Source: Ascidia mentula
Taxonomy: Eukaryota > Chordata > Ascidiacea > Phlebobranchia > Ascidiidae
NCBI GenBank assembly: GCA_947561715.1
Contig: OX387203.1
Span: forward strand, 4,774,001-4,838,000
Direction: 5' to 3'
Length of the DNA: 64,000 bases
The position numbers and the translations under genes are program-made. Shown here one piece after another: positions 2,119 through 29,600 of the stretch. The notes below the pieces were generated by a model, which saw only the letters and a list, made by a program, of their open reading frames with translations, did no database searches and had not been told where the DNA came from. Within the stretch, counting starts at the first letter, position 1, and every line of letters starts with the position of its first letter.

Positions 2119-2231
2119 GGTTTGAAGAACTAATTTCCCTTTTAGGTTTCTTTGTGCAGAGTTTTTACTTAAAAGTGATTTGGCTAAGCTCGCAGTCGAC
2201 GTGCATTAAGGTTACTGGGAAAGGGTTTTAA

Positions 2232-2305
2232 CATTACCGGGGTTCGAACTATGGTGTAGTGTATCTCGTGTTCGGGGCGTTATCCTCTACACCAAGTCTG
2301 GTGAC
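2232..2305 (-). repeat. tRNA-derived SINE-like element, copy 3
   Basis: On the minus strand it has head TTGGTGTAGAGG and tail AGTTCGAACCCCGGTAATG, matching the other two copies. The middle part is unrelated or heavily diverged. Confidence 0.55.
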
Positions 2306-4140: not shown

Positions 4141-4189
4141 TTTTATCTAAACATTTAGATCACATTTCCAGAAGACTAACAGTGGTGTT

Positions 4190-5390: not shown

Positions 5391-5519
5391 GACAAATTAT
5401 AACTCAAACGACAAGAGTTCTTCATTTAGAGCCAGTAGTTTTGAAGACTTTGAAGACTTTAAAGACAGGCATTGTTTTCCGCTCTTCGGCTTCTCTCTAT
5501 GTCCTATACACCCACACTG

Positions 5520-5586
5520 GGATTCGAACCCACACCATCTCGCACATCTATTCTATGGAGTTTTATTAGCTCTGTATGGTCGGACC
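5520..5586 (-). repeat. tRNA-like pol III element
   Basis: On the minus strand there is a perfect B box (GGGTTCGAATCCC) with a weak A-box-like block about 50 bases before it (near 5575). The acceptor stem does not pair convincingly, so it is a tRNA pseudogene or SINE head. Confidence 0.45.
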
Positions 5587-5589
5587 AAA

Positions 5590-6790: not shown

Positions 6791-6799
6791 GAGTCGCTA

Positions 6800-8540: not shown

Positions 8541-8648
8541 AGTTTTTTTTTTGATTTTGATTTGATGCACGCCGACCGTCGATCCCCAAAAATGAAGTTT
8601 AAATGCGCTAATAACACTTCGCACGATCCTGGTATCATTGTCTACAGT

Positions 8649-8875
8649 GTGCGTTTACAACATTTGTAACACCACCTCTGCGTGCACCCAGAAGAAGAGC
8701 TACAAACCCTGTAAACCACAGCCTAATTGTTTTGATACCGAAACAAGTGGAAAATCGTGCGAATGCGAAAATCGGAAATCGTGCGAATGCGAAAACGAAA
8801 ATCGTGCGAATGCGAAAACACGACTTAATGGTAAAATAATCTTCTTACAATCTTGGGTCCTCACAGATAAGGTTT
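8649..8875 (+). other. Cysteine-rich exon candidate within the repeated unit
   Basis: After an acceptor-like CTACAG the frame reads CVYNICNTTSACTQKKS, then KPCKPQPNCF and SGKSCECEN: eight cysteines in about 45 codons, no stop until 8875. Copy A (4303-4430) has the same acceptor and start (CVYNIYSTTSVC) and ends with SGKSCRCK and a stop. Preservation of a cysteine-rich frame in both copies suggests a captured exon of a small secreted peptide gene. No signal-peptide exon was found next to either copy. It may be a dead exon carried by the repeat. Confidence 0.3.
8752..8822. repeat. Minisatellite inside the cysteine-rich frame
   Basis: Three near-identical units built on AAATCGTGCGAATGCGAAAA, 24-27 bases each. 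In copy A the same place holds a single unit, so the expansion happened after the segmental duplication. It extends the frame with repeated SCECEN-type residues. Confidence 0.75.
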
Positions 8876-9500
8876 GATGTGGTTGTGTGGCCATGATTAC
8901 ACGAATTCACACATATGTGGCTATCATGAATTGTTTTGAATTTGGGAGAGATTTCCTAAAAAAAATTGTCACTAATCAGTAAAATCTGTCTACAGCGCAG
9001 AGAATTCATATTTTCGGCTGCTTATAAATGTCACTAAAAAGCTTGTGAAAAGACTAAAATTAAACTAACTTTAAAAAAAGACTTGAATTAAAGTTTAACT
9101 GACCTAAAAGAAATGTTCTTCGCGAATGAAGTCTCCATTCCATTGTATTGATCAAATCCAATTAAATTGAATGCAAAGTATTCGTGATGAATCCATACCA
9201 AACAGTCTACGTAAAGTAAAAATTGTAGGGTATGTAGCGTCTGAAAAAATTGCAAAGTTTGAACCCGTATCAAAAGAAACAATTGCAATTTAATCTTACC
9301 GCCAAGGTCGTTGCCCACATAGTATTTTGTCCTCTCCGTTGCCACATGCAAAAACAAGAATACTCCGAACTATGTTAAAAGTTCATTGAAATAAGGAGGC
9401 ACTTTTAATGATCTGTATTATGTTTAAGTAAGGCGGATGCGATCCCAACATTACGAGAATATGCATCATGTGATCCTCATTCTCTACGCGCGATTCTTAA

Positions 9501-9763
9501 CTAGGAAGATACTTTTACACCGGGTCACAAAGTTTTTTCCAAACTTGATCCACATATAAGCCTATGTAACATAGAAATCTGTGCGAATATTAACGCTACG
9601 ATTTCGTGTAGTATTTCAACTCAAATTTGTAAACAAAAATAACAGGTGGTGGCCCTGTTTACACCTAATCATCAAAATTCTCACAGATTTCTGTTTTACA
9701 CAGACTTATACGTGGATCAAGTTTGGAAAAAACTTTGTGACCCGGTGTAGTAGTATTTTCCTC
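9501..9763. mobile_element. MITE with long terminal inverted repeats, TTAA-flanked
   Basis: The first and last ~55 bases are inverted copies. The left end reads TAGGAAGATACTTTTACACC, and the right end, reversed and complemented, reads GAGGAAAATACTACTACACC. Both continue through GGGTCACAAAGTTTTTTCC. Weaker inverted similarity continues inward to about 90 bases (AGAAATCTGTG on both sides). TTAA flanks both ends (9497-9500 and 9764-9767). Copy A (near 4935) has a single TTAACTAGGGCTAG with no insert, an empty site. TTAA flanks with an inverted repeat aligned to the very end suggest a piggyBac- or Kolobok-type MITE. The flanks can also be read as a 9-10 base duplication (CTTAACTAGG), as in Mutator-like elements. 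Confidence 0.85.
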
Positions 9764-10344
9764 TTAACTAGGGCTAGCGCCATATTAGTGTTCTTCCTAT
9801 GCTATAGTAGGAACACGCGATGCGTGACAAACATACAAAGCAATCCAAATCACATCACAAAACACAACACAACAACGAGCATGCAAATGTTGGGATCGAT
9901 CTAAACAATATCATACAACCTGTTTTAAATTAATTAACTATCGTAATACGAATGATACAAATCACTCAACTGATCAAACCAAGCACAACCTTCCGTTGTA
10001 AAAACTTGAGCGAATGAAACAACACGTTCTTTGGATTAAAAGCGAGAAGAAAAAAGTTTCTCAATCTTAATTAGCGTTTTGGTTTGCGCCGCAGGGACCC
10101 TGAAAAACAGGAGAATTGAAGAAACAAGCACGCGAATTTCCCTGGAGGTGTTTCTTGTTGAGAATTCCACTTAACTAGTGAGGCATAGAAAAGCCTGCTG
10201 TTGCAAATGTTGTGTAAAATCATAAGTTTGATAAATAATACCCAAATGTTTGAATGTTTTTTTAATCGCCGTTATTGAATCGGCAAAGACATATTGAGCG
10301 GGAACAACGAGTAGTAAGTTACTAAAATATCAGCAAAAGTGGGC

Positions 10345-11444
10345 TTATCGCAAATGCAATACAGATATTAGACAATTGCCGTGAATACTCTGCTTTAAAT
10401 GCAATTGTATATGGTGAGCAGACAATTCAATAAACAATGGAATGCAGGCAGGATAAGAAAAGCCTTTGTCGCAACGCTGCGTTGGGTACAGGGGAAATTG
10501 GAATTTGGCTCTGCATAACTTATAAAAGAACAATCAAAACTAAAGACCAATCCCCAAAGGATTTTAAACCATTTGTGCATTTGGTTTCAACATGCATGTC
10601 TCAAGGAATTTAAAGACGACCTCATTTTGCAAATTTAAATTAAATTTTTCTTACTCTTCAACACCACATCCACACATAATACAGTGTTTTATTTGCAACA
10701 TATTAAGTTTAATTATAGACGAAACATGTGACCATATATTTTTCCTGCTTCACTCCAGCATTTCAACGTCGTCCAGTATCTTTTTTCCGCCTCTGCATTT
10801 ACGGTAGGTCGTACAAGTCAGACACCACAATCTGTCTGTTTAAACAAAGAATTCATTATGTTACTTAAAATTAGTTGGTTTAGCTGATAAAGGGATAGAT
10901 ATCATGACTATTTGTTTGCAATAAACTGTACCAAATTATTTACCACTTTGTGTATAATGAATATTGCAGTTGCGAGCACATTTTCTGTTGCAAATTTCCT
11001 GTAAAAGGGTCTTCATTAAACCAGATTAATGGCAAATATAAATCGTAACAACACAACTACAATTTTGTATCCTAGCTTTTTAAATCTGGTTTCTAAAAAT
11101 GACTATCAATTTCCTGGACAGTAAGGTTTGGTATGTCACAGGATAACATAAAGTGTTTTGGCATGCTTTCTCATTTGTTTTGTGCGCCGCAGTTTTTTTT
11201 AAAGTCCGCATGCTTACTTACTTGAAAAATGTCTCGAGCCAGACTGCAACCTTAAAGATAAAAGCAGAACGTCAAAAAGTTATCGCATTCCAAGAATTTA
11301 ATATCTCATATAATTAGCCCAAATCCCCGCCATATTGTTATGTATAACAAAAGTAACTTCATGCAAATAATAAAATTCTGTTTGTTAGTACGTTTTTCGA
11401 CTTACCTGTGAAAACCACCAAGATCAAAACAAAAGAAGCCTTCA
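10345..11444 (-). CDS. Small secreted peptide gene, partial model
   Basis: The first exon is clear: ATG at 11444 encodes a signal peptide, MKASFVLILVVFTG, and stops at a perfect donor (GTAAGT) at about 11414. Further exons are tentative. A 22 base mini-exon lies near 11230-11251 (acceptor TTGCAG, donor GTAAGT). A cysteine-rich exon lies near 10955-11006 (EICNRKCARNCNIHYTQ in one frame). A terminal frame ends at 10345 and includes RCDKGFSYPAC and a stop. I could not make all phases close, so which pieces belong together is unresolved. The gene is head-to-head with the secreted-peptide gene starting at 12515. The family is not recognised. Confidence 0.4.
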
Positions 11445-12029
11445 TTTTCTTCGGTCTCCTAAGACTAAATACAAAGAAACAAGGGCCATCACCTTTTAAT
11501 GAAGCACACAAGGAAATTGAGGCGACAGTGTGTCCATTGAAACGCAAGGAAAGTGGGAAAGTTTTGCCGCCAAAAGTGAATACCTTTCATAACGTGACTC
11601 ACTGAGTGGTTCCTGCATAGATTACAGTGCATCGTGATTCGCATTTTTTCCGTGCTGCTTTACCGTGCCTTGAGTTATATCTAAGACAATCATACGAGAA
11701 AAAATTCCCACTAGAGCGTTGAATCGACGATTGTGTGTCAACAAGCTTACTCAATTGAAACCCTGTTCGTGCAGTGGTGCCTTGAGGAATTTTTTTCTCC
11801 CGTTATGCTTGGAATTCACGTTACGCAGAAGAAAAGTTTTTCTACGAAACAACAATTGGCTTTCAAAAAGTTGGGAGTACAATGGATGAAACCATTTGTT
11901 GACGTTCTAAAATGATCACAGTTACCCTTGTTTGAGATTTTTAGTGTTTTAAATAAAATATTGCAGTTACTTTTAACAAATAGTCATTATTATTTTGTTT
12001 TCATTTAAATGCAATAATAATTTTTTGTG
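11445..12029. other. Divergent intergenic region
   Basis: Separates the minus-strand signal-peptide exon from the plus-strand one at 12515. Short frames at 11408-11605 and 11733-11915 have no splice or family support. It probably holds promoters for one or both genes, but no TATA box stands out. Confidence 0.35.
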
Positions 12030-12080
12030 AGCTGCATACAGATGGCAACTGTTTAGACCTATGGACTCATCAGTGCAGCT
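12030..12080 (-). ncRNA. Hammerhead-ribozyme-like motif, decayed copy
   Basis: Read on the minus strand: stem I strand AGCTGCA, core CTGATGA, stem II GTCC-ATA-GGTC, then TAAA in place of GAAA, stem III CAG-7-base loop-CTG, cleavage triplet GTA, then stem I partner TGCAGCT. All three helices of a type I hammerhead can be drawn, and stem I is a perfect 7 bp. The second core block has T where the conserved G belongs, so the copy is probably inactive. It is the same family as the motifs at 21616 and 49360. Confidence 0.65.
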
Positions 12081-12514
12081 TAGTGTGACTCTTTTAGACA
12101 ACTTTGCCGGCCAAACGGTTTGTACTTGTACTATACAATCACCGTCATCAGTTCGGCACCAAATTGGCTCCATTTTCCTCATATATATGATAAAATAAGT
12201 CTAATCAAGAAAACATTTAATTATTTTCGCCATGTATCCTTTTCTCCCCGATTGTTCTCCGTTATGACGATCATCACACTATAAAGTAAGGAACAACGCC
12301 GATTTAGCGATATTTCCTTCGGTATATGACTGTTCACAGAAACCCTATTAAGGGTTTTTGCGCGAAAAATCCAATATCCGGCATTAGCGCGAACGTTGAT
12401 TCCGCATATAGAAAGCTCGTCCCGACTAAACATAGTTAAAATGTGGGATACAGTGGTTTTCGTATCATTTGGGTTTCGTTTGGCTGAGTGTATTTAGTTA
12501 TAAGTCGTGTAGAA

Positions 12515-13264
12515 ATGAAGATTTTACTTGCCTCCTTGTTAATAATTTGCATCACTTCGTCTGCGATGGGTAAGCAACTACAAATTAACCTGTTTTATTG
12601 AAATTCACTGTATTTGTTGATAATTTCGTAACAAGTTGTATCGAAACCGTAACATGTAAAATGTTGCTGATATTCATCTAATAACTAATACATTCTGTAG
12701 GTTTGACATCAAATGAAACCCAGATTTTGAACGTAAGTTGCACAAACTTAAGTTTGTCTACGTTGCACAAAGATGTACAAGCTGCTTGTAAAGGTGTTGA
12801 TTTTTTTGTTATAGTATATTTGCAACTACTTCTGCAACAAGAATGCCACGAACCACTTTGTTACCGGGGATTGTCCGACTACATTCCCAGGTCAGTAAGA
12901 ATAATTGGTGGAATGTTTTGTTGACAAATGTTAGGCTCCAGAAAACCAATGCTACTGGCTTGTTCTATTGGCAACATTAGTTTGTTAAATTAAACTGAAT
13001 AGAATTTAAGCGTGTAAATTTGTAGCAATGTAAAAACTTTTACAATGACTGGATTGGAATGGAACAAGCTATAAAGTTTAAGGCCCTTATTTGATTACTG
13101 ATGACAAAGTTGGTCGTAAAATGACTGGTGTTTGTATCAAAGGATTTGGATTTTGCCTCTTCTGTCGGTTCGGATTGAATTGCCTGCAGAAGTTTAACTA
13201 CCAGGAAGGAGACGCACAGATGGTGTTCGATATTATTCTTGACATGGATGACGACCAGTTGTAA
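12515..13264 (+). CDS. Secreted cysteine-rich peptide, four exons
   Basis: Exon 1 (12515-12569) encodes a signal peptide, MKILLASLLIICITSSAM. Exon 2 (12701-12732) gives LTSNETQILN. Exon 3 (12815-12890) gives YICNYFCNKNATNHF and a further cysteine. The last exon ends at 13264 and contains CIKGFGFCLFCRFGLNC and an acidic tail ending MDDDQL. Its acceptor is either at about 13079 or at about 13108, both in phase. Splice phases join at every step and donors are good (GTAAGC, GTAAGT, GTCAGT). The mature peptide is about 80-100 residues with about seven cysteines and two possible N-glycosylation sites. I do not recognise the family. Exon 2 is also in phase with the coiled-coil exon at 14751 and with the exon at 17129, so alternative 3' ends are possible. 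Confidence 0.55.
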
Positions 13265-14695
13265 ACTGTTCTTAACTGTTAATGCTTGCAGTTGTGTATG
13301 TATTCACTGTGTGATCTTGTCAGAATATAGTTTTTCACATGCCGTTTCATGATGTTTCAGTCTTATCTTTCTCGAAACTTTTTGAAAGTTTATTTCAATA
13401 AATTTGCTGCATGCCAGAAAGTGTTCTCCACAGCGTGGTTTCGCCTTTCTATCAGCATGGTAATTTTGCTCTGACTGGTCATGCGGAACGTTGCCTTTAT
13501 CCAAATGAGGGCGCAAAAACAACATGGTTAATATCATTAAAATTAATTTCTAATTATTTCGCAGCACAACTACAAATATGACTCCAGTGCGTAAAACTTT
13601 TGTCACCACTTAAACGAGTATGTGTGCTCTGTTTTAAAGTGCAGTTATTTCACCTTAGATTTTATGCGATAGATTATATTCAATGGCCCTCTACAAGGCT
13701 TACATATTCTGCCGAACCACTTAAGAAACCATAACATTGTGCCCTGCTTCCGTATACACAACATAGCGTAACGCACGATTGTTGTGTCCCGCTCCATATG
13801 TTGCACAAATACTCTCCTTGATGAGTCGGCAGAACGGCAAGCGCGTGCCCATCAGGATTGATTGGTAGTGCTGGATTAGTCAAACTATTGTAACTGCGAC
13901 GAGGTTCGTGCGTTAGTGCATTTAGAATCCATAGAGGCAATTAAGGGCCACATACGGTTTTGAAATAACTTCGCGTGCCACTGAACGTGGATTTTTCTTG
14001 TGGTTTTTACAGCAAGCAAAACAGAGAAAATTATCACACCCGAATTCTCTGGATAATGTATATTACAGCCCTGTATAATTGTGAATGTAGTGTTTTACTT
14101 CACTAAAAATAAGTGTCGTTTTTAAACTATGCTAGTTATCACACAAAAAATGACTATCTTTATGAGTACGGTGCGCTATACGCATAGTTGATTTGTCCAA
14201 CGTATTCCTATTTCCTTGACATATGGTACTCGACTGAATAGGAATTTAAGTGTTCATTCTTTGACATTAAATTCAAGAGTTCCTTATATCCCTTCGAAAA
14301 TTATGGGTATAATTTGTACCCACGCACCAAACTAATGGAGACCTTTGTTTTTCCCATTTACCGTTTCCTATATTGCGGTAATCGTTTCCTGTATTGTGCA
14401 GCTGCATCAAACTCAAAGAACTTGCAATTGAAGAACTCCATCTATTGAGCGTTCAATATTTTTGCAGCCTGTACTGTCGCAAACAACTCACTTTAAAGAG
14501 GGGTTCATCGCACTGTCATGAAAAATCATATATTACGATACTATATATTATACAATACTTTTGAAATGAAATACGTAATCATGCCTTTGAAATAAAGATT
14601 AAAAAAACTGCTCGAAGACAACAATTTAATGCGAAGTTGTGCAGATTTAGTCCCTGGAAGTTGAATTGCCTTTCTTTGCGGCATAGGCTACGACA
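13265..14695. other. No gene seen; possible large intron
   Basis: No exon with both splice sites and a sensible frame. A minus-strand frame at 13680-13940 has no recognisable family. If the signal-peptide exons at 12.5 kb also splice to the coiled-coil exon at 14751, this is an intron. Confidence 0.35.
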
Positions 14696-14750
14696 GACCT
14701 GCCTAATTGCCTTTAAAAAAGGTGTCAAATACATAATACGTGTTTTTTAG

Positions 14751-15197
14751 TTGAAAATCCAGGAAGAAAGCCTTAAACAAGAAATCGAAACACTGAGGTT
14801 AAAAATTGCAGACCTGGAAAGTGATTTAAATAAAGCTACAGACAAGTTGAACAGGTAGGCTAAATGTGGTTGATGTTTAGCTTTATTGCAGAAATAACCT
14901 TTAAGGTAAAGAATAGCCTACATATTTGGAAACAGATGCATTTCGTTCATTAACAAAACAAACTTACGTTAAGCGATTAAATTTTCACCTTTCTTGTGTA
15001 CACGGTGGAAGGGCTTTTAACTGGAACATGTTCTTTTTTTTAGAGGCAATGCATCGTGTGCAATCGCTAATTATGGAATAATTTACAAAGTGTTGAGACA
15101 AAGTTGTCATGGTATTTTGCAAGAAACTTGTCCGATGAACGTTACTGTTGTGCGAGGAATAAATGTGTCTTTAAACTTACAATACACTTCGTTTTAA
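14751..15197 (+). CDS. Coiled-coil plus cysteine-containing C-terminus, two 3' exons
   Basis: Exon 14751-14854 follows a strong acceptor (TTTTTTAG) and encodes a heptad-patterned coil beginning LKIQEESLKQEIETLRLKI and ending ATDKLN. It splices in phase to 15044-15197, which adds RGNASCAIANYGI, three more cysteines (QSCHG, ETCPMNV) and ends QYTSF with a stop. No start codon lies in these exons. The signal-peptide exons at 12515 and 12701 end in the right phase (phase 0) to supply one, giving a secreted ~100-residue protein with a coil and a small disulfide domain. That join is an inference. The LTR fossil begins 15 bases after the stop codon. The acceptor and first half of exon 14751 are duplicated at 22263-22355. 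Confidence 0.5.
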
Positions 15198-15211
15198 AAA
15201 CCATCACAATA

Positions 15212-17105
15212 AAAAAGCGTTGTAGTGCTTTATTGCATTCCAAAGTTAAGACTGACTCCACGCAACACCAGCAAAAGACAAACGAGGTGAAAAAGGCAAT
15301 TAATCCGCTTCGTTAAAATGCGGTAAAGTGAGCGCTACATAACCCCCCGCCAGAAGCGGACAACAAAATTTAGAAACAAAACGGGCCGAAGGGCCGAGTA
15401 ATGCGACCAGAGCGCGTGCGTTGAATAGTAATGCGACTAGAGCGCGTGCGTTGGGTGGCAATGATGGTTGCCGGGTGGATGGAACTCGACTCTGCTTGCA
15501 AGGTTTCCTTGGCGCGGTGGTGGAGCTATTTGGACTGGTTGTGTCAGGTCGACGTGGACAGGCTTTAAACGGTCAACAGAAACTGTCTGTTGACGCCCGC
15601 CAAAGTCCAGTGTGAACGTTTTGTTTGTCCTTGCTATGACCCGGTATGGCCTTTCATACGGAGGTGTCAAAGGCGGGCGATGTTTGTTTGTGCGCAAGAA
15701 TACATAAGCGCTATAGTGTCTAATGACTTTGGAACATTTTCATGCGGATGTGAGTGGCGCGACGTGGGTGTCGGCAGTTGACAGGGCACGATAAGCCGTC
15801 GTGCGATGAAGCTTGACACCAAGAAACCTAGTAAAAGATGTCCATAAATCAAACGTGAATTGTGGGCCGCGGTCGGAGGAGATGTCCAAAGGTACACCAA
15901 AACGCGACACCCAGTGGTATGCATTGCCATGTTAGACGGAAGTGGACCGACAATGTCTACATTAACATGAGCAAAACGAGCCCGTGAAGGCGGATAGTTT
16001 TTAAGAAGCGAACGTACATTTTGTTGGAGCCTGTAATCTCCACACGGCCTCCAGCCGCCTGTAGACTTTGGGAACATGTGTAGCGGCGAAGCCCAGGGGC
16101 TGGACGAGCGTCGGGTAATCCCCATTTTTAACATATTTGCGAACACATTTCTTGCCAAAGTGAGTTACTCAGAAGGAAGGCGCCGAGCACGCGCGTGCAC
16201 TGGAGGTCTACTTGTTGTTATGAAATGCTGCACTCCGTGCCTGGGGAGCAATTCAGAAAAGTGAGACGCTGTAGCTGCTGGAAACGCGCGTAATCACTCT
16301 TGTCTGAGGTGAGAGCATTTATGCGAGGTCCCGGCTTTTTGCAAAAAACTAGCAAACGTTTGTGCGCTGACCAAACGCTGTCATTAAAGATCAACTAACA
16401 AAGAATATGATCTTAAAAAGTCGACGCAGAGCAGTTGCGCTTAGACATCCGCCAAAACAAAATTCCAGACTAGAAAATTGCGCCCAGACATTCGCTCCAT
16501 TATAAAAAATACGCTGCTCGTTTTGCCGGCCGTCGCAGCGGCTAAAGACGGTCGGCTTGCTCGTTTCCCTAAATGAACATGGAGGACAACACTGACGTTT
16601 TACCGAAACGGCGGTGGTAAAAGGATAATTGGGAAGTGTTTCTTACTTGTTGTGGTGCGGAGTAGGACTGAACCTCGGGCGTCGCACCTTTAATACTGCG
16701 TATTCCTTCTCCTTAATTGCTGCGTACTTGTCTTCTTGCGGCGGTTGTTCCAAGTAAATCAATCAAACGACTTACTGTGTTCTAATCGAGTGCTGACACT
16801 ACATAAAAGTACTTGGTTTCGTCAGCTGTCTTTCTTTTGAGCTTCCGCTTGCTGGAACCAAACAAACAAGCTTAATCGCCACAGCGTTCTGACAATCACT
16901 GCCGTCCATCTTAATTTGAAACTTATATCAAGAAATATACATTTTTGACTCGTCGGGGTAACCATTATAAAAAAGCGTTGAAGTGCTTTATTGCATTCCA
17001 AAGTTAAGACTGACTCCACGAGTCCACGCACCACCAGCAAAAGAGAAACGCGGCGAAAAAAGGCAATTAATCCGCTTCTTTAAAATGCGGTAAAGTGAGC
17101 TCCAC
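15212..17105 (-). mobile_element. Ty3/gypsy-type LTR retrotransposon fossil
   Basis: Two similar ~130 bp direct repeats at about 15212-15345 and 16974-17105 are read as short LTRs. On the minus strand both begin TGT, contain GCAATAAAGCAC and end near the same point. A purine-rich tract abuts the left LTR (near 15350), and a primer-site-like TGGTTACCCCGACG follows the right LTR. Between them lie only about 1.6 kb, with recognisable gypsy-family protein parts on the minus strand: a reverse transcriptase piece (near 16100-16150) and integrase pieces (near 15960-15990 and 15440-15690). The element is broken and strongly shortened compared with the usual ~5 kb, with many breaks. The LTRs differ visibly, so the insertion is old. 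Confidence 0.8.
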
Positions 17106-17128
17106 AACAACGAATTTTTTGTGTATAG

Positions 17129-18189
17129 GTTCAACGCTTAGAAAAGACGATAGCAGCGCGAGATATAGAAATTGAAGTCAAAACAACAAGTCTTCAAGAG
17201 GTTTGTCAACATACGTGATAATTTACTAAATATTCAAGGTCTGTGTGTTTTCGTGCTGAAGGTTGTAATTCAAGTGGAAAAACTCGTGACGGAGATTAAG
17301 AAAAAGTAAGTTTAATTGCCAACAAAATGAAGTTAAGTTGAACGGTTTAATTGTGGATAAGAAAGTTATAAAATTTGTGTTGACGTCTGTAAAGCTGTTT
17401 ATGTTGAATTTTTGAAATGACTGTTGCTTCTTGTACTTGTAATCAATTTTTAACGGGTTCCAGAATAAACATCTTGTTTATTGTTACAGTTTGACTGAGA
17501 AAATTTCGTTAGAAGCTGAGGTAAAAGTTAGAAGTAAATGTGCTCGGAGCAAACGTGTTAGGTAACGTAAATAAAATTGAAAGATTTTATACTTGTAATA
17601 CACTTATGCTTTCTATATGGAAGCCATTGCAGGAATTTTATAATGCAGATTCAACGCTCAGAGAATAAGTTAGAGGCGCTGAATATAGAAATTGAAGACA
17701 AAACAGCAAGTTTCCAAGAGGTTTGCCTAAATACACGCTAGATATTATATATTTTATATCCTAGTGTTGTTTTTGTGTTTGAGGTTGAGTCTAGATTGGA
17801 AGAACTGGAGAGGGAGATTACGAAAAAAGATTACCATATTCTCGAAATCAAAGGTTTTATTTAATTTTGGGAGTTTTATTTTATCACAACATATTTTTGC
17901 CATGGGATCTAATACATCGAAACCTGCAGGCAGCTCACTTCCAGGACATAATTTTTCCGTTAAAATCAGTAGCCGCAGTTTCTTATCTTTAAATCATTTG
18001 CAAGACCACGATTTTCCTTGTGATGTGAACTTTTATTAACGTCACTATCTTGTCTGGCACGGATGAAAAATTCTTCTTATTATAATTTTTGTCTGTTGAT
18101 GTATTTCGGGTGATTTGCAACAAGTAGTGGACAAATACGAAAAAGTGAAGCAGGATTCGGATGCGATGTCAAATTTTCAGGAAATTTAG
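17129..18189 (+). CDS. Coiled-coil protein, six 3' exons with a tandem exon duplication
   Basis: Exons 17129-17200, 17262-17305, 17490-17561, 17633-17720, 17784-17853 and 18125-18189 join in phase and end in a stop. They encode about 135 residues of charged heptad repeats (VQRLEKTIAARDIEIEVK, then EKLVTEIKK, NLTEKISLEAE, IQRSENKLEALNIEIEDK, SRLEELEREITKK, DKYEKVKQDSDAM). The first exon pair is clearly duplicated: 17129 matches 17633 (IEIEVKTTSLQE against IEIEDKTASFQE), and 17262 matches 17784. No start codon is present. Exon 17490 would also accept the 14751-14854 exon in phase, and exon 17129 would accept 12701-12732. Function is unknown. A tropomyosin-like rod is possible but not shown. Confidence 0.55.
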
Positions 18190-19375
18190 TTTGTGTTACA
18201 ACGCATACACTAAACGATGTTATGTTGTAATACGTGTGTATATTATCGTTTACATGCTTCCAATTGTAATATTTCTTAGCTTTTGTGACTGCTTTTATTA
18301 CACAGACGTCTTACTGATATAAGTAACTTGTTTATGGTTTGCGTACTGAAAAAACAAAACGTTAAACATAAAAAGCGAATCTTTTTTTATTAATAGGTTT
18401 CCCGGCTTCGCAGCCCAGGCATTGCAGCCCAAGCCTGAAAACTTATCTCGATACTATAGCTGTGGTTGCCAAGTTAGGACCTGTGCAGTAATTCTGCAAT
18501 ATTAAAATTCAGAGGACATTGAGTATATAGATGCTGACACAATATGTAATCAATGAATAGGGAAACTAATTTTACAACATAAAAATTCAAATGCATTTGT
18601 GACCGAAAGCAATGCTGTTCTACAGCTCGTGGCCAACAAAGATATAATGATGGTCGCAAGAGGGCAGGTTTGTGTGTGGGGGGTATAATTTACAACATAT
18701 GATTGTAAATAGTAATTACCCATAATTATGCTTGCAGTTACATATCATGCACATTTGTAACCGGAATTTAGCCAATACGTCCTTAAAATAAATAAAACAT
18801 GTCAATGTTTTCTGAAGTATAGGCCAGTCTCTCCATTCTCAGAATTATGAGTAAATTCGTTGTTAGTGTTCCTTACCAAGCCAATTTTTAAGAAAATTTG
18901 TTCGTGCCGGTCCTAACACAGTAGACCCCGGAAAAATGTCATCAACGCGTCACATAACCGATGGCTGTTTTTCTAGAAATTTTACTCAGACAAAGACATA
19001 ATGACTTTAAGGTGTCTCGTTTAGCGGAAAGCAGCAACTACCAAAATAGTAGACTATTTCTTCGAAATGTTTCATGTGCTGGACTATTAACCTATGCGAG
19101 GAACAAAGGTTTTCTATTGTTCCTGTATCTGATTTGTTTTCGTCAACGCACACACCAGCTAACTGACACTCTATAAAAGACTGCTGCATAACGAAGTAAG
19201 CATAAGAAAGCTTGTAAAGTGGTAAAACAGTAAAAAACGAATTTTGAATGGAGTTGGACGAAACGTGTAGAAACACTTTAACTTGCAACGGCATAAACTT
19301 ATATTCTCGGCAGAGTTACCTTTGTGCTGTCGCAATTTAGATTTTTTTCCAAGGTTTTAGTTTTAATCATCTGCC
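18190..19375. other. No gene seen
   Basis: Intergenic stretch between two same-strand coiled-coil genes. Frames at 18474-18659 (minus), 18961-19176 and 19007-19294 (minus) lack splice signals or a family pattern. It probably holds the 3' UTR of the upstream gene and the promoter of the next. Confidence 0.35.
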
Positions 19376-20506
19376 ATGGAACTCGTGAAGCTAAAAATTC
19401 TTGCCCTAAGAGATGACGCCAAAAAACTGGCAAACGAAAACGACAAGTTGAATGCGGAGAACGACCTTATTCGTTCGGCATTGGAAAAGGTATTTATGAT
19501 TCAACAAAATTAATCTCTGTTACGTGTTCTCAAATAAATTTTTTCCCTGAGAAAAAGAGTGGTGAACATTTTTTTGCCTCCTTAGTTGGAAACGGAAAAC
19601 AGCTCTTTAAAACGTTCCACCGTGAAACTGGAAAGAGAATTGGAAAGGGTGGAGAGGAAACTGGCAGAATTGGTTATTGTTGAAGAACTAACAGACGGGT
19701 AATTAAGTAAATGACATGTAAACTAAGTTACCTGTCAATTAGTTACGTAAGCAATTGCTAAATTTTATTCGATAGCAATTATATTGATTTTCTAAAACGT
19801 TGGCTATTTTGGTGATTTACTGTCTGGTCTGGGCTGCATTTTCCACAGAGAAGTTTTACAGTTGTTTATTGTTTTGCAGGGGAACGAAATGTCACCGTAA
19901 GGTAAAATGCCGAATTATGAATGTTGTGTGGGGTGTGTGTATTGCGCGTATTTCTTAAAAAAGCCTAATAACAGGTAGAGCATGATGTGAACAACTGACG
20001 GTTATATGACTCGTCGATTCTAGGTCTATATAGTACCTGCATAAACACCTATTGTTGCAGTTTCAGCTCATGGAAAATACCTTATCGGCCTTTGAACAAA
20101 AGGCCGGGGAGATGCAAATGAAATTTGATCAAGTGAGTCTTCTAAATAAGTTGTAACGCAATTATCATCCAAACAAATGCGTTTTCTTGGCAGGCCTGCG
20201 CAAATGCAGACCATTTGGAAAAGGAAAACAAACAAAAGCAACGGAAAATTACATTGTTGGAGAGTAAGTTACGCTGTTTTCTGTTAAGCCTGTACATTTG
20301 ACGCAGCTATCACCAAAAAAGCTAGACTGTAGAAACTACGTTACGACACAATCATATAATCTTCTGTTGGTGTTATGAGATAATTGTAAAGCCGTTAAAG
20401 TCAAATTTAACATTTTTTTACAGTGGAGCTAGGAAGAGCTGAACAAGATCTCAAGGAATGTAAAGAAAATTTCGCTGCCACATTTGTTCTCCTGGCAGAA
20501 ATATAA
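19376..20506 (+). CDS. Tropomyosin-like short coiled-coil protein, 157 residues
   Basis: Six exons (19376-19489, 19586-19698, 19880-19901, 20061-20132, 20194-20263, 20424-20506) join in phase to a 157-residue protein. It is almost wholly heptad-patterned and rich in Lys and Glu: MELVKLKILALRDDAKKL at the start, KLERELERVERKL near residues 50-65, LSAFEQKAGEMQMKFDQ near 90-105. It ends FVLLAEI. The style resembles a short tropomyosin, but it lacks the usual 248-284 residue length and I see no diagnostic tropomyosin C-terminus, so the name is descriptive. One exon is only 22 bases. A polyadenylation signal AATAAA lies near 20677. It could act in the cytoskeleton or as a structural rod. Its neighbours on both sides also encode coiled coils. 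Confidence 0.65.
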
Positions 20507-20973
20507 AAGTCAAATTTTGTTATGTGCATCCTACTTCTGTGGGGACTTGAAACTTAAATATTGCAGCGTGTTATTAATTTACTTTATTCGGAATAATTTT
20601 TTTTAAATTATTTGGTTTTTATCAAAAGAAATCTGCAACCATTATTGTAAAATTTATGTTTACCAGCGAAGTCGAATAAATACACAAAAATTCTTTTGAA
20701 GTAAGATGTTTGTTATGTTTTACAAGTTCCCGCTCAAACACTGATCACGTGATAAGTGTAGTTTGATTTGTTTGCGATTTGTAAATTCAGAAAATACTAT
20801 TTGCGGCAAACGTAAACAAGGTTTAGGATGTCGCAGCCAAAAATTAATTCCTTCTTTAATTCGAACCTCGGGTAAGCGTCCATTTTTTAGCTGTCGTCAG
20901 TGCGGCACAAACTAATTGTAAAAACATGTGAAGGAGAAGTGGTGGTTATTGTAATCAAAATGGAGACAGCAAT

Positions 20974-23900
20974 ATGGCAACAAATTCGTCACGAAAGGCT
21001 TTGTATTGGAATACGTACAAAACGTCAAACCAGACTTTACAAATGTATCAAAGCAAAAGGGTAAGCAACATAGTTCCTGAAGCAAAACAGTTCCTTCACG
21101 ATTCCATTATTTGACAATGGATAGAATTGTAATGTTTATTTTAGTTTTATTAATTAGGGTATTTATATATTATGTTGTTTATCCAAAAACAACATAGCAC
21201 GTTTTTGCCCTGTTTACAAATAGGATTAACTAGAACAGGTTTTTTGTTGTGTTTTGGCTCTAGGCCTAATACAAGCATTGGGTTTCTTAAATTTTTAGAA
21301 GGAGCAAAGAGCTAAGAAAATGAATGACCAGATGATGTTTAACATGAGTAGTGAACTCTCCACACCACCCAGTGATTCGCAAATAATGGACGACTCACAA
21401 AACTTTCCGAGCACCTCATCCCAATCTCAGGTATATATGCCTTATGCCATGGTCCTATTCATGCCTATGCCATCTATTTGAATAAGAAGTGATGATGCTT
21501 AATAAAGTGAAACATCTAGTTTGGTACCCAACATATCGACGATTGACCGAAAGGTACCACAAAGTGGAAATCTGTGTGCCTGCTAGTCTACCAGCTAGCA
21601 CAGTGCTACATCAACAGCTGCACTGATGAGACCTTACAGATCGAAATAGTGCGTGTATACACCCTGTCTGCAGCTCTCATTGATTATTATGGCTCTTTTG
21701 CGCATATAAAGTGAAACATGTTTTCTGAAAAATAGAAGGGTTGACACAGAGTTGTTTTAGTAATATTTGAAATTGTCATTATAGTTTTACTTGTGTCAAG
21801 TCAAAAAAATGTTACTGGTCAGGTTTTAATTTCGAGAAGTTAAAAAATTTTCAATGTTATTTAATTTCTTTTTGTTTTGGTCTGCATTTTTTCAACCAAC
21901 CAAACTTGATATCACCTGTGTCAGAATGTAAATTTTGACTGTGTTTAGATCCTATTGGCCATAAAACTTTATATTGTCACAGGAAAGTTGCGGTTGGAAT
22001 TCACGACCTGCCAGCTTAAAACCAATGAGAAACCCCAACTTGGGACGTAGTCGGTCAGGCTTTTATGGAATAGATACAACTGACACCAAACCTGACTTTA
22101 GACTTTACATGGAGGAGGTGGAGAGGGTGGCCAAAGAAAAGGAAGAAAGGTAACAAAAATGTGTATTTTTTAGAATATGGTATTTTTTAGAACCGAAATG
22201 ATTTTTCGGATTCATCATCACCACTATTTTTGGACATGTTTTCTCTTTAAGGCATTGATTAAAGACCTGCCTAATTGCCCTTAAAAAAGGTGTCAAATAC
22301 ATAATACGTGTTTTTTTAGTTGAAAATCCAGGAAGAAAGCCTTAAACAAGAAATCAAGAAATCTGTATATACTTGTGTTAAAGTTTGTCATTGTTACAGA
22401 GAAATGCTGCAAAACTTTCTGCTGTCTGCCAAGCAATGTTGTGAGGAAGCCAATCAAATGGCTACGGAACTTAAAGAACAGCAAGCCAATCAAACAGAGA
22501 CTTTGCTTTCAAAATGTCTGTATTACAAACTTTATTTTGATTTTCGGTGCGTTAGTTTTAGGGCGTTTGCATAGCAAATCACATCATTTATTGTTTTTTT
22601 TTTATTGTGTAAAAGACCACAACACAAATGAACAATATATACAGAAGGTAATGAGCTTGGTATTAGAGGCAGGTACCCATGTAACTGTCAGGTGATTTCC
22701 TAGAGATTTCTAGAGAATCATGCTCTGTCTCATACTGTACTACCAGATCCTTTTGTTGCCTTAACTGTTAGCAATATTTATGTTTTTGCTGCAGTTCGAA
22801 AACTAGCAGATGACATTCCAATCCAGAAACTAGTGGATAATAATAATGCACAGGTAGATGTATTCAATGATTTTTTTGAGACTGGGTTATCAGTTAAACT
22901 TCTGTTGCAGATTGAAAGGTTAGATAAAAAATTACAAAGCTGCCTGGATCGATTAGAAAGCCTGCAAGCCACATTTGATGAACAGAAAGAAATTCTGGCA
23001 AAGTCAGAAGCCAGTGTAGTTTTGGCAGTGCAGGTTTTTTTCAACCTTACTCTGTTGCAAACCCTTCCCTTAGTCATTTTCGTTGCATTATATTTTGTCA
23101 GGCATGTTGGCAAAATGATCTTGAAGACCTGAAGAATTGCATGAGCCTAAAAAGGCCATTTTGTACAGAAATTTCAACACAATATTCACCAAAAGTTTCA
23201 ACAATTTCAAAGGCATCTCAAACTTGTCCCAACAACTATCAAAGCTTTTCTGACGATGGTATAAAACATGCTTGGTTTTATCTCGGTGCCGACATATGCC
23301 ATTGCACTTTTTAGAACATGCAGTTCCTTGTGCCAAAATGGATTATGATGTAGACAATACAGATGAAGAATTCTTGACCTATAAAAGGTACATATATATA
23401 TATATATTATAATACATGACTACAGGGACATGGCTTAAAAAGCTGGGTGTTTTTATCGGTACCAGTGACATTGTATTCACATGTAGATTATTTATTTGTA
23501 AAGTACTTTGTTGTGCAAAGCAAAATGTGACTTGATTTGTATGTTAAAAACCAGATAAAAATATGTTTTTGTTGAGAAGCTTGGGAAACACACATTTCCA
23601 ACAACAACACAGAGGAAAACGTGACCAAAAACCAGTAAGACTCACGTTGTTATATTTTGGTCTAGTACATCCATGAAACATGGTTTGCAAAGTTGTAAAA
23701 TTCGGTTCAATATAGTGATATCTTTATATCAAGTGTTGTACAGTTGTGTAAACATTTAAGATTGCTGAAAAGAAAGTTAAAGACAAACAGCACTGGAGAA
23801 AACCAAAGAAGACAAAAAGAACTTTGTCTCCAGCAATGGTTGGATTTATATATACAGGCAGTACTTTCTTGAGGACTGGTGTAAATGAATACATATAATT

Positions 23901-24742
23901 GCAGGTAAATGAAGTTCCTCCAAGGTTTGTGGATAGAGGTGGTGACTACCATGGTTCTAGTGGAAACAGTGCCACAAGGTCAGTTCTTTATACTGCATTT
24001 ATGTGTTAGTGCGACAACAGTGCAGTACTTTGAAACTTAATGTAGACTTTTTAACTTTTGTTCATATGATTTGCACAAAACTGCACCAAGAAACTAACAA
24101 TGCTAACTTCAGAAAAAGGTGTTATCTTTTTAAAAATACATACTTCATAATATGGTTTAGGGTAAAAAAGTCCGACATGCAAGAACGTCAAACAGTAAGT
24201 AGTGTTTTTGTATTCACCAAAACAATAAATCGTGACTGTAATTGTTTCGCAGCTGGAACTTTCCCCAATAAGCTCACCTGGATTGGTTATGGTAACTTCT
24301 AAAGTAAGAAATTGGCCCTACAAATATAATATTTTTCACTTTTTCACACTAAAGTAGTGAAGATTTATGACAAATATATTTGTTATTTCTTACACAATTT
24401 GAAAGGTTATTTGTTGAAAATGTATGCACATAAAACCAAAAATGAAGCTGATCAAAGGTAAGACATTTGCCCTAAGAAAAATGTAGCCAAGTGTCATAGC
24501 AAAAAAATAAAACAAGCATATGTTTCTTGGGCAACTCAAAACCAAATTATTCTCTTTGTCGACGGTAAAATATTTACAAATAAAACAAAAATGGAGCCAA
24601 AAGATTGCCATCATCACATTGTATCTGTATAATTCAATGTCAATATTGTACTTTGCAGAATTTTGGACGGAATCGAAAAAAGGCGGATGACTATTTTTTC
24701 AACTGGTTTCAATCTGACGAAACAGAAATAAGTTTATTTTAA
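20974..24742 (+). CDS. Coiled-coil protein, IHO1/Mer2-like layout, 403 residues
   Basis: Thirteen exons close exactly in phase: 20974-21060, 21299-21430, 21983-22149, 22400-22515, 22795-22853, 22911-23033, 23102-23258, 23315-23387, 23580-23634, 23905-23978, 24161-24194, 24253-24303, 24659-24742. The protein starts MATNSSRKALYW. A Ser/Gln-rich stretch (PPSDSQIMDDSQNFPSTSS, about residues 54-72) is followed by a basic segment and a central coil (about 110-260, including ELKEQQANQTETLL, DRLESLQATFDEQKEIL and VVLAVQ). Then come SKASQTCPNN and an acidic-aromatic C-terminus (NWFQSDETEISLF). This order (N-terminal SDSQ motif, central coil, ASQT block, short C-terminal motif) recalls vertebrate IHO1 (CCDC36), the HORMAD1 partner in meiotic break formation. 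Similarity by eye is weak, so the assignment is a hypothesis. The gene model itself is strong. Confidence 0.75.
21616..21675 (+). ncRNA. Hammerhead ribozyme, type I-like, core intact
   Basis: In order: stem I strand AGCTGCA (21616-21622), core CTGATGA (21623-21629), stem II with a 5-base loop (21630-21642, GACC/GATC with one mismatch), core GAAA (21643-21646), stem III with a GTAT loop (21647-21666, two mismatches), cleavage triplet GTC (21666-21668), stem I partner TGCAGCT (21669-21675, perfect 7 bp). Every conserved core base of a hammerhead is present in the right order. It lies in an intron of the coiled-coil gene (between 21430 and 21983), sense strand. Related decayed copies occur at 12030 and 49360. 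Hammerheads of this kind are known from small retroposons and Penelope-type elements. Confidence 0.7.
22263..22355 (+). repeat. Transposed copy of a splice acceptor and half exon
   Basis: Bases 22263-22355 match 14696-14786 with about two differences. The copied block covers the last ~55 bases of an intron, its acceptor and about the first 35 bases of the coiled-coil exon (LKIQEESLKQEI). At 22.3 kb it sits in an intron, 45 bases before the true exon 4 acceptor. Joined from exon 3 it would put a stop immediately after the splice, so it is not used in the main model. The flanks are unrelated. Confidence 0.85.
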
Positions 24743-26696
24743 TTTATTTCGACTTGTGGCTTTTTTTCAATGAAATGCCATTTAAAATGAACTGGGTATA
24801 AGTTTTTTGTTGCTCAGAATCAAATATATTTGTTGCCGTTCTTTTGCTGTTTCTGAAAAATATATATTCTAACAGCAAACGTTGCGGTCTTTTGTGAGTG
24901 CCCTGCAGTCTTCACACAACTCTTCTTTAAGGCATTAGTTTAATAGCAATGACAAAATTTGCGAAGTTAAGGATGCAACTGACGCAATTGAAAGAATAAT
25001 TAAGACACAGCAAGAAGCAAATACAGAAATTGTTTTTTCGTGCGAAGTTTCGTAATGCAAAAAACTGGCCATCGCTCATGAAATTGATTTCAACAAGTGT
25101 GGTAAGTACACTGGTATGGAAGCTGCTTCCAAGTTTTAGGGCAGCGCGAAGAAGCAGGATGCTGCAGGTTGTCTCACATCTGGCATTGATGAGTAGCAAT
25201 TGCACGCACAGGAAAAAATCACTTTGCACATTCTATGTACATTTGATGCCACAAATGGTTAAGCCAACCACCATGCAGATTTTTTTTTGCCAAAAACAAC
25301 ATGCAAGGGCTGCATTTAGTATAGCTGAACTGAGCTGTACCACATAGATAAACATGGGTTAGTAAACTGGTATAAAACAGAAAAAAAATGACCAATTAAA
25401 ATAAAAAATGGGTACTTGGGATTCAATTGTCTCAAAACATTGAAAATTTTATTTATCGCTACAAATTACTTAACCTGTTGTAAGTTTAAAATGCGGTGGA
25501 CACTTTCAATGTTGTACAAAAAAGCCAATGCAACAAGAAATTTAGTAACATAGAAAAAATCCATGACCTCGCTAAGTGCAATATTTAAAATATGCCAGTG
25601 ACTTTTTGATACAAGGTAAAGTTTCTTGGGCCCCAACCAGATAGCATTGGTAAGTATTGGGCACAGTGATTTGTTAATTGTGATTGCTTTGACATTAATT
25701 ACATTTCTTAGTAATCCTTTTACACCAATTATTCGGGGCGTTTAACAATTATGATAGGCAAAAAATAGATGGTTTTGCAATATTAATTTTAATGGTAAGC
25801 AAACAGTTAAGGCACCATATTACAAGCATCCAGTATTGTTAAGAAACAAGCACTATAGTCTTTACAAGGTATAATGCGCCACCACCACAACAAAAATATG
25901 TGCTACAGAAAATAGCACTAAACAAGGCAGACTGCAAACAGTGGAGAAGCCAGTCAAATTTGTATGTGTTTTGTTTACGGGTGCAACAGTTTTTTGAAAC
26001 ATAAGGCAGAAAGCTGTAAGGCATGTCTGGCCGAAATATTATTCAAATAAAAATTAGCTACAAATTACACATATGGAAACCTCAATCTTTGTCTTACAAA
26101 TTTGAAGTAAGGCCATAGCTACAATGACGAAAAAGATTCAAGTGCCAAAAATGTTGATTTGCTAATCATACAATGAAGCATACAAATCCACAACTTTTGA
26201 TTTAAATTTTGTGGTTGCCAAATGTCAATACTCGCTTTTGCATTGCAACAGTGGAATTAGTAGTACTGAAACAAGGCTGTTACAAGTGCAGTGATTTTGA
26301 AACAATATTATTCAGCAATCAGTGAAAATACAGAATTAGTGAATGTAATTTATAATACTGGACGTGCAACAACACAATACAGCGATTAGATTTGAAAAGC
26401 ATATATTTACAGAAAGAAAATGGAACATTAAATGAAAGAAAACAGTAAGTTTGATGTATGGTACTCAAGTTGCTTCTGGTACATGCAGCGCATACCTAAA
26501 ATGTAAATTACATCTATTAGTTTAGAAATACATTACTTTTTCTTTTAAATTGAAATTAGAAAGGACACAACACCATTTAAAAACTGGCCCAGTAAAAAAT
26601 AAATTGGCATAATTTACTGGCAATCCATCCAAAGAATATACTTATTTGTGTGACTATAACACTTAAAAAATTACAGCTAAACGTTCAATGCATTGT
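24743..26696. other. Convergent 3' region; likely synaptotagmin-like 3' UTR
   Basis: Lies between two convergent genes. No coding exon is supported. A short open run at about 24950-25040 (plus, DAIERIIKTQQEAN-like) is coil-like, but it has no usable acceptor phase and soon stops. On the minus strand AATAAA-type signals occur near 25450, so the 3' UTR of the minus-strand gene may occupy roughly 25.4-26.7 kb. Confidence 0.4.
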
Positions 26697-29600
26697 TTAC
26701 CATTCAGTTGTTGGCTGGTTTAGGTCGCTAGAGGACAAATCTATGGTAGCTTGCCCCATCAGCACCTTCTCAGAGGAAAGAAACCCAGTTTGATTCTTTA
26801 CAGTAACATGAAGCTTGCCATGTGAGACATCTCTCAAAGGTGCCTCAAATTCCAGTCTGCAAGATATGAACATATGTAACATTCATCATTGCACAATGGT
26901 GTTATACTGTACAGCATTGGGCAGCTTAAATGAATTAGTTAATTAAATTTAAATGAGCAGTTCTCATAAATTGTGTCAACAGTATTAAAATATTGGCTCC
27001 ACTTTGCTTTTTATATTAAAACAGTTTAGATTTCAGGTGATTTAGACAGGAATTCTCTGCAAAAATGCATACAACAAAACACAACTGTTTACTGATGGGC
27101 TGAGTAAGATAAACATTTGTTAACAGTCTACATTTTAGCTAAAAAAAAGTATTGCATGATGACAAAAGCTTATTCTCTGACCATGGTTAATACTTGATCA
27201 GCCATTGGTCGCACAACCGAATGTAAATCATTTGAAAGAAATTATGTGGTGAAAATATTTTGTTTCCAATAAGGCGTATTCACTGAAAAGTTTTACACAC
27301 TTTTGATCATAGACAGGATTCAGGTTGTTCTTCACCACTTTAGTTTTTTTCCGGTTTTTCTTATCATTGTTTAGATGAATTCGTATGTAAGGGTCAGACG
27401 TTCTGTCGTCATCATCACAAATGATTAGATTCCTATAAGTGAAAATGTGATTAATAATAGAGACTTTGTGCATGTATTCCGAGACTTTGTGCATGTATTC
27501 CGAGGTAACTAAACACATTTTAGCATATTAATTTGTAGAGAAATCTGATGTACAGTATTTTCTTGTACAATCGTACAGACATTTGCAGAACATATTTGCC
27601 GGATAAGGTTACGTTACTTGTTGAAACAGATAGTAAATTGGTAGGAAACTGAGCATTCTTTTCAAACATACTTTTATTGCATCTTATTTAAAGTCAGACT
27701 GTTATTTGATAAGGGTTTGACTTTTGTTGCTGGTATTTGCATCACATTTAAATCACGGGTATTTGCATCACATTTAAATCAGATAGCGCATTTATGACAT
27801 TAGGGCAAGAACCTGAAAGCTTTAAATTCAACAGTGAATCAAGAATACACTTAATTTTAAACATCACAGTGATAAGCTTTTTACAATACCATAAATATAT
27901 CTTTATTTCTATATTCTGACATTATGTGAGTATTCTCAGGTGAGTCAATATAGAGACAAGGTTAGGTTGATAATATAGCAAATCAACTGTGTTGATAATG
28001 ACTTACTCGGCACGGACAACCACAACAACCAGTTTGTGGTTGTGGTAGCGGTAAGTAAGCTTGACACGCCCAAGACCGTTGTCATTTTTCTCTTCTGCGG
28101 TTTCAGAATTTTGCATCCTGCATAAAAATTGATTTTATTACAGGAAGTGTCACAACAAGCTTTCTCACAATTATATACAACCAATTTGGTACGCAAATCT
28201 ATAATCAAGGTAAATTTGTCAGCACTATCTCATAGCGCAACAGATTTGCAGATCATTAAATTATTTAATACAAAAATCCAAAGAGATTATAACGGTTTCC
28301 ATAACCTACTTTGCATTTAACCTCTTTCTGAGGTCATTCAAAGCTCCTGGGTTGGAGATTTCGGAAGCCACACTTGGTGTGCGATTCAGGCCAGTGTTTA
28401 CTGGTGTACGCAAAGAGCCGCTTTCTGTGAATTGTGATTGCATATTTGTAATGCATTTATCTCAATACACTTTACCACAATGTATTTAGGTGTATGTTTT
28501 ATATCAAGATTTAGTTATCTTCTGTTTGGCATATACTAGGTGTTGGCAACCTCTTGGAAACAAGATTCATGACATGCCAAATGATTTACAAGTTCATATT
28601 ACAACACTGGAATGTACATACCTTTTCCTAAATTAACCACTTAAAATTCAAAATTGCTGATAATGTAATTCGTGTAATGATAGGGTGTCATGAAGTTTGG
28701 TTACTAAACAAGGTCAATTGACACTTTGACATAATTGGAGAACCATTATATTACATCCAAAAGGTTGCCAACCCCTTGCAAACATAACATAGCTATACAA
28801 AACCTTTATTATTGAAGTATAAGAAGTAAATAGACGGTAAATAGACTTCATCCAACAATTACCAGAAAAGAAATATTTACACACATCAGTAAAAGGTCGG
28901 TGCAAAATTCCACGGGCGAAATTAAAAAAGCACACTATTTTTAAAACCAAGCACATCATTGATATCAGACAGGTAGGTTATAGGCAGAATGTGGTGAAAT
29001 GTAGATAATTCTTCCAGTATGATCCACGATTTGTTTAGAACTTACCAAAATTCTTTAAAGCCAGAAAAAAAAAATTTATTTATGTTGATCAGGTTTCGAA
29101 AAGCATACACTTCATATTTCATAGTGATTACTGACAACCCTTGGGTCCTATGTAAACTTCAAATTTCATGCAAATTGCAATTTAAGGATAACTTATTTTA
29201 ACCTTCATCCCAAAACTCATTAATGTTTTTTTTAGTTAATGCACAAATATATTAATTGTGGCCTGCTTTTAACAACATTTAATAAGGGGGACATTGGGCA
29301 AAACAACTTTCCATGGGGTAACTGGTGTACACAAAACTGGCTATCACTGCATTGGTGATAACTACAAGATTACAGGCTTACATGCAAATTATCAACTCCA
29401 CAAAGTGAAAACCTTACCACAAAAGGCTTGCAATGTCTTATCAACTGTTAAAAATGAAAGATATTTGTTAAAAAATGGCAAACCATGGGATGATTTTGAA
29501 TGTTTGTTTTTTTGATTCATAGTTTGTTGAAAAAATACCAGTTTAATTACCCTTTCTGTACACAGGTGATTTAAATCAAGGTATAATAATCAGAACAGTT

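Follow-up and report, generated by a model that had tools for sequence, protein, structure and literature searches.

The closest described systems are the metazoan retrozymes, non-LTR elements made up of tandem units of 170-400 nt that carry a type I hammerhead ribozyme and have no LTR. As set out in the available portion of PMC7229834, these elements are flanked by target duplications of more than 4 bp, have a GC content below 50%, and reside in genomes that also contain Penelope-like elements (PLEs). PLEs have been proposed to mobilise them, on the grounds of co-occurrence and of shared hammerheads and tandem copies (available parts of PMC7229834 and PMC7761336). Purified PLE protein cuts and extends both strands, with copying that begins at two internal sites matching the tail; in vitro, these start sites do not differ between the two strands (PMC11167929). 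The words ascidia, tunicate and Ciona are absent from the main text of PMC7229834. Nine type I hammerhead loci are on record for Didemnum vexillum, likewise a tunicate, in PMC8704543, whose available description includes neither a retroelement nor any insertion anatomy.

The window, i.e., the whole 64-kb stretch of Ascidia mentula DNA that was analysed, contains a type I hammerhead motif on the forward strand at 21616-21675, which was recognised by direct reading, by a covariance model of our own and by a match to RAGATH-1-hammerhead below its gathering score. The core strands CTGATGA (21623-21629), GAAA (21643-21646) and GTC (21666-21668) provide the hammerhead core CUGANGA, GAAA and UH in that order. 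Stem I is a perfect 7 bp helix in which AGCTGCA (21616-21622) pairs with TGCAGCT (21669-21675), stem II (21630-21634 with 21638-21642) contains one C.A mismatch, and stem III is formed by the pairs A21646-U21667, U.G, A-U and G-C, followed by an irregular hairpin. From general hammerhead anatomy, we take C21668 to be C17, with the predicted cut 3' of this base. An intact and ordered core with no base lost, a perfectly paired stem I and a single mismatch in stem II had all been described in the earlier note, and direct reading confirmed each of them: the motif is a hammerhead.

Searched with a loose descriptor (CTGANGA, GAAA and three helices), the 64-kb window gave this site and no other, and 100 dinucleotide shuffles of the window gave 3 sites in total. 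With a covariance model (R1) built from 16 copies, all of them outside the window, the motif scored 75.0 bits (E = 2.3e-17, a rough value). Genome-wide, a pattern that fixes the core and part of stem I, and leaves stems II and III free, matched 960 + 878 = 1838 sites, whereas the reversed control matched 0 + 0. These matches, taken with the shuffle counts, place the motif beyond chance. The 1838 matches span several hammerhead subfamilies and, judged by this pattern, the family that carries the hammerhead has well over a thousand copies in the genome.

The motif lies in an insertion of 194 bp between exact 14-bp direct repeats. The 5' copy of the target-site duplication, ATAAAGTGAAACAT, occupies 21502-21515 on the forward strand, and the repeat, with a spacing of 204, was re-found by script. 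The insertion itself (21516-21709, forward strand) was delimited by family matches and by borders common to other copies, and is a 5'-truncated retrozyme copy containing positions 100-293 of a 293-nt unit; the 3' copy of the duplication (21706-21719, forward strand) overlaps the end of the element by its first four bases. Around the insertion a host intron is predicted at 21431-21982 (forward strand), with splice-like borders between open frames that, by eye, stop at CTCAG/GTATAT and restart at CACAG/GAAAG. Pfam searches found no domain in the three forward frames of 13000-28000 or in one forward frame of 1000-15999. The earlier note had interpreted the motif as a hammerhead on the sense strand of an intron. 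That much was borne out for what is likely to be an intron, the frame borders having been judged by eye, but the interpretation overlooked that the hammerhead belongs to a transposed repeat with target-site duplications.

When 21516-21709 was compared with its own assembly, there were at least 48 matches at E ≤ 0.001, and at least 40 places, including the window, matched 185-190 of 190 query bases with 96-100% identity, both figures coming from the best 40 of 1868 candidates scored. With near-identical copies at so many places, the window hammerhead says little about its host gene: it belongs to a retrozyme family, of which it is a slightly damaged copy, and is not special to that gene. A search of a phage collection gave no match. 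Compared with the majority sequence of 38 other aligned copies, the window copy is changed at 3 of its 194 sites. The majority sequence of those 38 copies has an intact core with stems II and III paired; core changes occur in several single copies, e.g., L017 and L018. Two of the three changes in the window copy fall in helices: one makes pair 3 of stem II a C.A mismatch and the other makes pair 2 of stem III a U.G wobble, and each of the two recurs in one other copy. Because of this mismatch and this wobble, self-cleavage of the window copy is probably weak or absent. Having a single ribozyme only, it cannot release circles on its own, and cleavage there would at most nick an intron.

Fold predictions, a coarse measure that takes in secondary structure and leaves aside tertiary contacts, pointed the same way. 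Of 30 rows from the subfamily of the window copy, 21 had a minimum-energy fold that kept 13 or more of the 15 hammerhead pairs, which amounts to 21 of 28 other rows, since the window copy was counted twice (as itself and as L001). For the window copy, the minimum-energy fold kept 0 of the 15 pairs, and forcing the hammerhead fold would cost 6.7-6.8 kcal/mol, compared with 0.0 in 22 of the 30 rows; these predictions support the earlier suggestion that self-cleavage may be weak. The cost was higher still, at 7.7 kcal/mol, for L023. Fold energies were ordinary relative to shuffles, with z values of 0.33 for the window copy and -0.50 for L003. In the latter, an intact copy, the frequency of the minimum-energy fold was 0.029 and the centroid was a competing fold that occupies the core strands, while for L074, L075 and L077, which represent other subfamilies, the minimum-energy fold was not a hammerhead. 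RNAalifold, run on the alignment, predicted five stem I pairs together with three others that take the place of part of the core and of stem III, at an energy of -2.83.

Among 100 listed pattern matches, which all lie on contig C1, standard pairing was seen in 95, 98, 94 and 93 for the four pairs of stem II and in 100, 92, 95 and 91 for those of stem III, although this mostly reflects common descent, given that the arms are the same in 75 and 77 of the matches. With helix I open, 93.1% of cells in the three helices were paired, compared with 17.2-34.6% in slid controls. The rows of the 34-row alignment (A1) were chosen by a pattern demanding CTGATGA, with 5 of 39 listed pattern matches excluded as apparent chance; the window coordinates replaced L001, which is the window copy, and two rows, representing other window copies, have no G of GAAA. 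Shuffles matched the observed level of pairing in 167 of 500 cases. No pair was changed on both sides in either 34 or 16 sequences, whereas the slid controls contained 1-3 and 0-2 such pairs, respectively. The paralogues are much alike, so that the missing compensatory change counts little either way, and the helices rest on their fit to the known hammerhead motif. The earlier note had named as a test the existence of a genome-wide family sharing the paired positions by compensatory change; a genome-wide family sharing the helices does exist (1838 matches against 0), but no compensatory change was found among the members compared. When two subfamilies, represented by one copy each, were aligned by parts, identity was 46 of 53 ungapped columns in the hammerhead and 129 of 223 in the remainder of the unit; by this comparison, the ribozyme seems to have evolved at a slower pace than the unit sequence around it.

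Two decayed hammerheads of the same superfamily lie elsewhere in the window, both on the reverse strand. In the second (12030-12081; R1 47.5 bits, E = 4.1e-10) GAAA has become TAAA, and in the third (49355-49408; R1 42.6 bits, E = 7.7e-09) it has become AAAA and the 3' arm of stem I is lost. Other features of the window include frames at 15303-16164 (reverse strand) that resemble, by eye, the remnant of an LTR retrotransposon pol, with SSDRGPQF- and WRPCGDYR-like stretches; a Pfam search with the 165-aa frame at 15667-16164 (reverse strand) gave no match. There is also a weak C2-domain exon at 36456-36827 (reverse strand; PF00168, 19.5 bits, under the cut-off of 22), with further C2-like frames, by eye, at 27231-27527 (reverse strand), and a Tubulin-tyrosine ligase exon at 46535-47050 (forward strand; PF03133, 77.5 bits).

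The retrozyme hammerhead has its core and the order of its helices in common with the Rfam families RF03152 (RAGATH-1-hammerhead) and RF00008 (Hammerhead_3). At gathering scores, however, no Rfam family reached threshold in the window and 19 loci or in a set of five sources, so that the covariance check proposed in the earlier note came out negative for the window and the sampled loci. In a permissive mode, the window gave RAGATH-1-hammerhead at 25.7 bits (gathering score 56.3) and SNORD25 at 23.3 bits (gathering score 39), and the best values for other copies were 29.1 bits with RF03152 and 24.9 bits with RF00008, under gathering scores of 56.3 and 48.5. RF00163 (Hammerhead_1) was absent at the limits used, under which overlapping matches of the same clan report the best one only. 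Genome-wide searches with RF03152 and RF00163 gave no match, but their controls were equally silent. In L076 (171-278), head-to-head hammerheads form a long hairpin that drew matches from a number of microRNA models in Rfam, the best at 38.3 bits (E = 3.1e-05) against a gathering score of 90; these matches are a false lead arising from an inverted retrozyme.

Longer copies supplied the 99 nt that are missing from the window copy, giving a full unit of 293 nt with the predicted ribozyme cut at position 252. Units occur singly, as dimers and as trimers, and in another subfamily they are arrayed at intervals of 285 and 286. A tandem array at C1:3332752-3334222 (G000) contains six same-strand hammerhead matches at a spacing of 285-286 bp, four of which were read in L074. 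Since the longest stop-free stretch in three joined units is 89 codons, the unit is, to judge by its frames, non-coding. It has a GC content of 0.474, below the 50% limit for retrozymes, and its duplications exceed 4 bp; its length and tandem arrangement agree with the non-coding unit of about 150-450 nt that is typical of a retrozyme. By its sequence features, the window element is thus a copy of a metazoan-type retrozyme, an element of a known kind.

Exact shared flanks of 9-15 bp border 28 of 40 insertions, a set from which 18 of 58 clusters had been dropped, compared with 83 of 1560 mismatched flank pairs. Doubtful by eye among the 28 are L030, where the duplication is element sequence, L034, where it is a simple repeat, and L024, which shares its site with L008. 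In a stricter analysis of the ends, 81 insertions were read, of which 41 were dropped for a flank in common with a kept one and 40 were kept. The 3' ends of these 40 fell into two alternative classes about 28 nt apart: 27 were outer (unit position 287-293, i.e., 35-41 nt past the predicted cut) and 11 were inner (262-267, i.e., 10-15 nt past it), with 2 at other positions. The 38 insertions whose 3' end is inner or outer all read through the predicted cut site, which implies that the RNA that was copied was uncut or re-joined there. No poly(A) tail was seen, by eye, at the insertion ends. Common flanks were also observed between pairs of loci, i.e., L006/L026, L008/L024, L027/L046 (by eye) and L061/L062 (by BLAST), so the assembly contains recent duplicates around some elements.

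An inverted, truncated copy stands at the head of 21 of the 40 insertions. Both the outer border of this copy (262-270 or 290-293) and the 3' end of the insertion lay within the two zones in 18 of the 21, the other 3 having an end outside both classes and being left out of the pairing count. One end was inner and one outer in 17 of the 18 classifiable insertions (permutation, 0.0002), so that they have the PLE-like signature of an inverted head with a tail at one end only. The query used for L001-L030 ended near the outer 3' end and therefore favours outer ends. The query for L031-L060 consisted of the 5' 99 bases and is free of this bias, and in that subset the ends were mixed in 9 of 9 cases (permutation, 0.028).

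The same assembly contains a PLE, with RT frames in L061 and a GIY-YIG end recognised by similarity to a fragment in the window; copies with RT/GIY-YIG gave 59 matches. The window carries at 6875-7957 (forward strand) a fragment of a PLE ORF in which C-terminal motifs of the RT are recognisable by eye and PF01541 matches a GIY-YIG stretch at 20.9 bits, under its cut-off of 22.6. There are 11 adjacent head-to-head PLE pairs, of which two on C70 are alike. The PLE pseudo-LTR (pLTR) precedes the ORF in L083 and follows it in L084, the two copies being 92.6% identical over 373 nt, and it carries a minimal hammerhead of its own, CTGATGA-N-GAAACGTC. This hammerhead (L084 296-329; L083 from 550) has a minimal helix III and lies, by eye, shortly before the apparent start of the ORF. 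The retrozyme hammerhead, in contrast, has a long helix III, and the retrozyme unit has no long frame and hence none of the ORF with RT and GIY-YIG by which a PLE is recognised. A PLE insertion on C1 has, by eye, one tail-less end and a tail of about 26 nt at the other, with a flank string of 16 nt shared between its two sides; in this one readable case, the PLE insertion follows the same plan as the retrozymes. A PLE pair on C71 has identical flanks and a tail at both ends, and a pair on C52 has no common flank string. No sequence similarity was detectable between the PLE pLTR and the retrozyme unit, so that the link between the two is anatomical only.

The reading that we hold with high confidence is that the window contains a recent insertion of a metazoan-type retrozyme, a hammerhead-bearing 293-nt unit that has been dispersed through the genome and is partly in tandem. 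In the life cycle proposed for it, tandem retrozyme copies would be transcribed, their hammerheads would cut the tandem RNA into single units, and the units would be ligated into circles. The resident PLE, with its RT and its GIY-YIG nuclease, would copy retrozyme RNA into staggered cuts, reverse transcription beginning inside the unit at two sites, which lie 10-15 and 35-41 nt downstream from the predicted cut, and each end of an insertion using one of the two start sites. We infer the cleavage, the RNA circles and the role of the resident PLE as donor.

LINE twin priming yields 5' inversions and target duplications of similar size, and a non-autonomous family moved by a LINE would agree with the inverted heads, the 5' truncation and the 9-15 bp duplications, as well as with the lack of similarity between the retrozyme unit and the PLE pLTR. 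Against it, no poly(A) tail was seen by eye at the ends, and the 3' ends fall at two set points about 28 nt apart, which occupy opposite ends of the insertion in 17 of 18 cases; moreover, the inverted pieces begin at the outer border of the insertion, as they do in the one readable PLE insertion here. We therefore consider movement by a LINE improbable. We also doubt that an autonomous PLE lost its coding part and that the unit is its pseudo-LTR rather than a separate retrozyme. The common insertion plan would fit this, and a PLE copy, L061 (with its duplicate L062), does adjoin a unit, but the neighbourhood of L061 seems to be nested, the matches of the PLE copies in L071-L073 are confined to the part further in and include no unit, and the resident PLE has a different pLTR and a different hammerhead, with helix III minimal there and long in the unit. 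The unit beside the PLE ORF of L061 had been taken up as a sign of a PLE pLTR, and was dropped because L071-L073 have no unit and L062 is a duplicate region.

That the ribozyme was kept by selection in its intron to control the host gene is very unlikely. Control of this kind has been suggested for a few highly conserved amniote hammerheads (in the available part of PMC7229834), and the sense orientation, the likely intron and the intact core are compatible with it. However, the insertion is flanked by duplications, the window copy differs from the family majority at just 3 of 194 sites and has many relatives elsewhere, and two of its changes weaken its helices and its fold. CTGATGA also resembles box C of snoRNAs, and the SNORD25 model scored 23.3 bits, but this lies under the gathering score of 39, and the family anatomy, the target duplications and the order of the hammerhead elements leave an intronic box C/D snoRNA with a negligible probability. 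The chance of a mere accidental resemblance to a hammerhead is likewise minute: the 3 sites found by the loose descriptor in 100 shuffled windows and the z values near 0 would allow it, but the family, with 1838 exact matches to the pattern where the control had 0, refutes it.

Returning to mobilisation by a PLE, we lean, with only modest confidence, towards a more general model in which PLEs mobilise metazoan retrozymes by two-ended, target-primed copying. Each staggered end would prime on the same kind of RNA, at start sites about 28 nt apart, the nearer of which lies just past stem I. The nearly invariable pairing of inner with outer ends would reflect a PLE dimer holding one RNA, and the ribozyme would make the circular template from which tandem units arise. 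On its own, the in vitro result of PMC11167929 would not lead one to expect that inner and outer ends are paired as found here.

The chief interest of the locus lies in the retrozyme family, in its size and, above all, in the pairing of its ends, which links it with copying by a PLE. The insertions themselves bear a PLE-type tail and an inverted head, and the two ends use different start sites in 17 of the 18 classifiable ones. In a chromosome-level genome with both PLE and retrozyme, the proposal that one mobilises the other becomes testable. A lone intronic hammerhead met in raw sequence should be tested first as a repeat. As far as we searched, insertion anatomy that points to a PLE as the mobiliser of retrozymes is new; the literature search returned no title or opening abstract reporting the PLE tail signature in retrozymes.

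Compared with the metazoan retrozymes of PMC7229834, in the available portion of that paper, the family described here is alike in its type I hammerhead, its tandem units and the lack of an LTR, has a unit whose length of 293 nt is within the published range, and agrees in target duplications, GC content and the presence of PLEs in the genome. It differs in having its own sequence, and in that many of its copies are 5'-truncated monomers or have inverted heads. Insertion ends with the PLE tail pattern, which that portion of PMC7229834 does not report, are mapped here. With PLEs, as described in the available parts of PMC3846280 and PMC11167929, the retrozyme shares tandem and inverted copies and target duplications; PLEs may also carry, on one end, a tail of about 31 bp and start reverse transcription at two internal sites, and the ends of the retrozyme insertions are alike in this.
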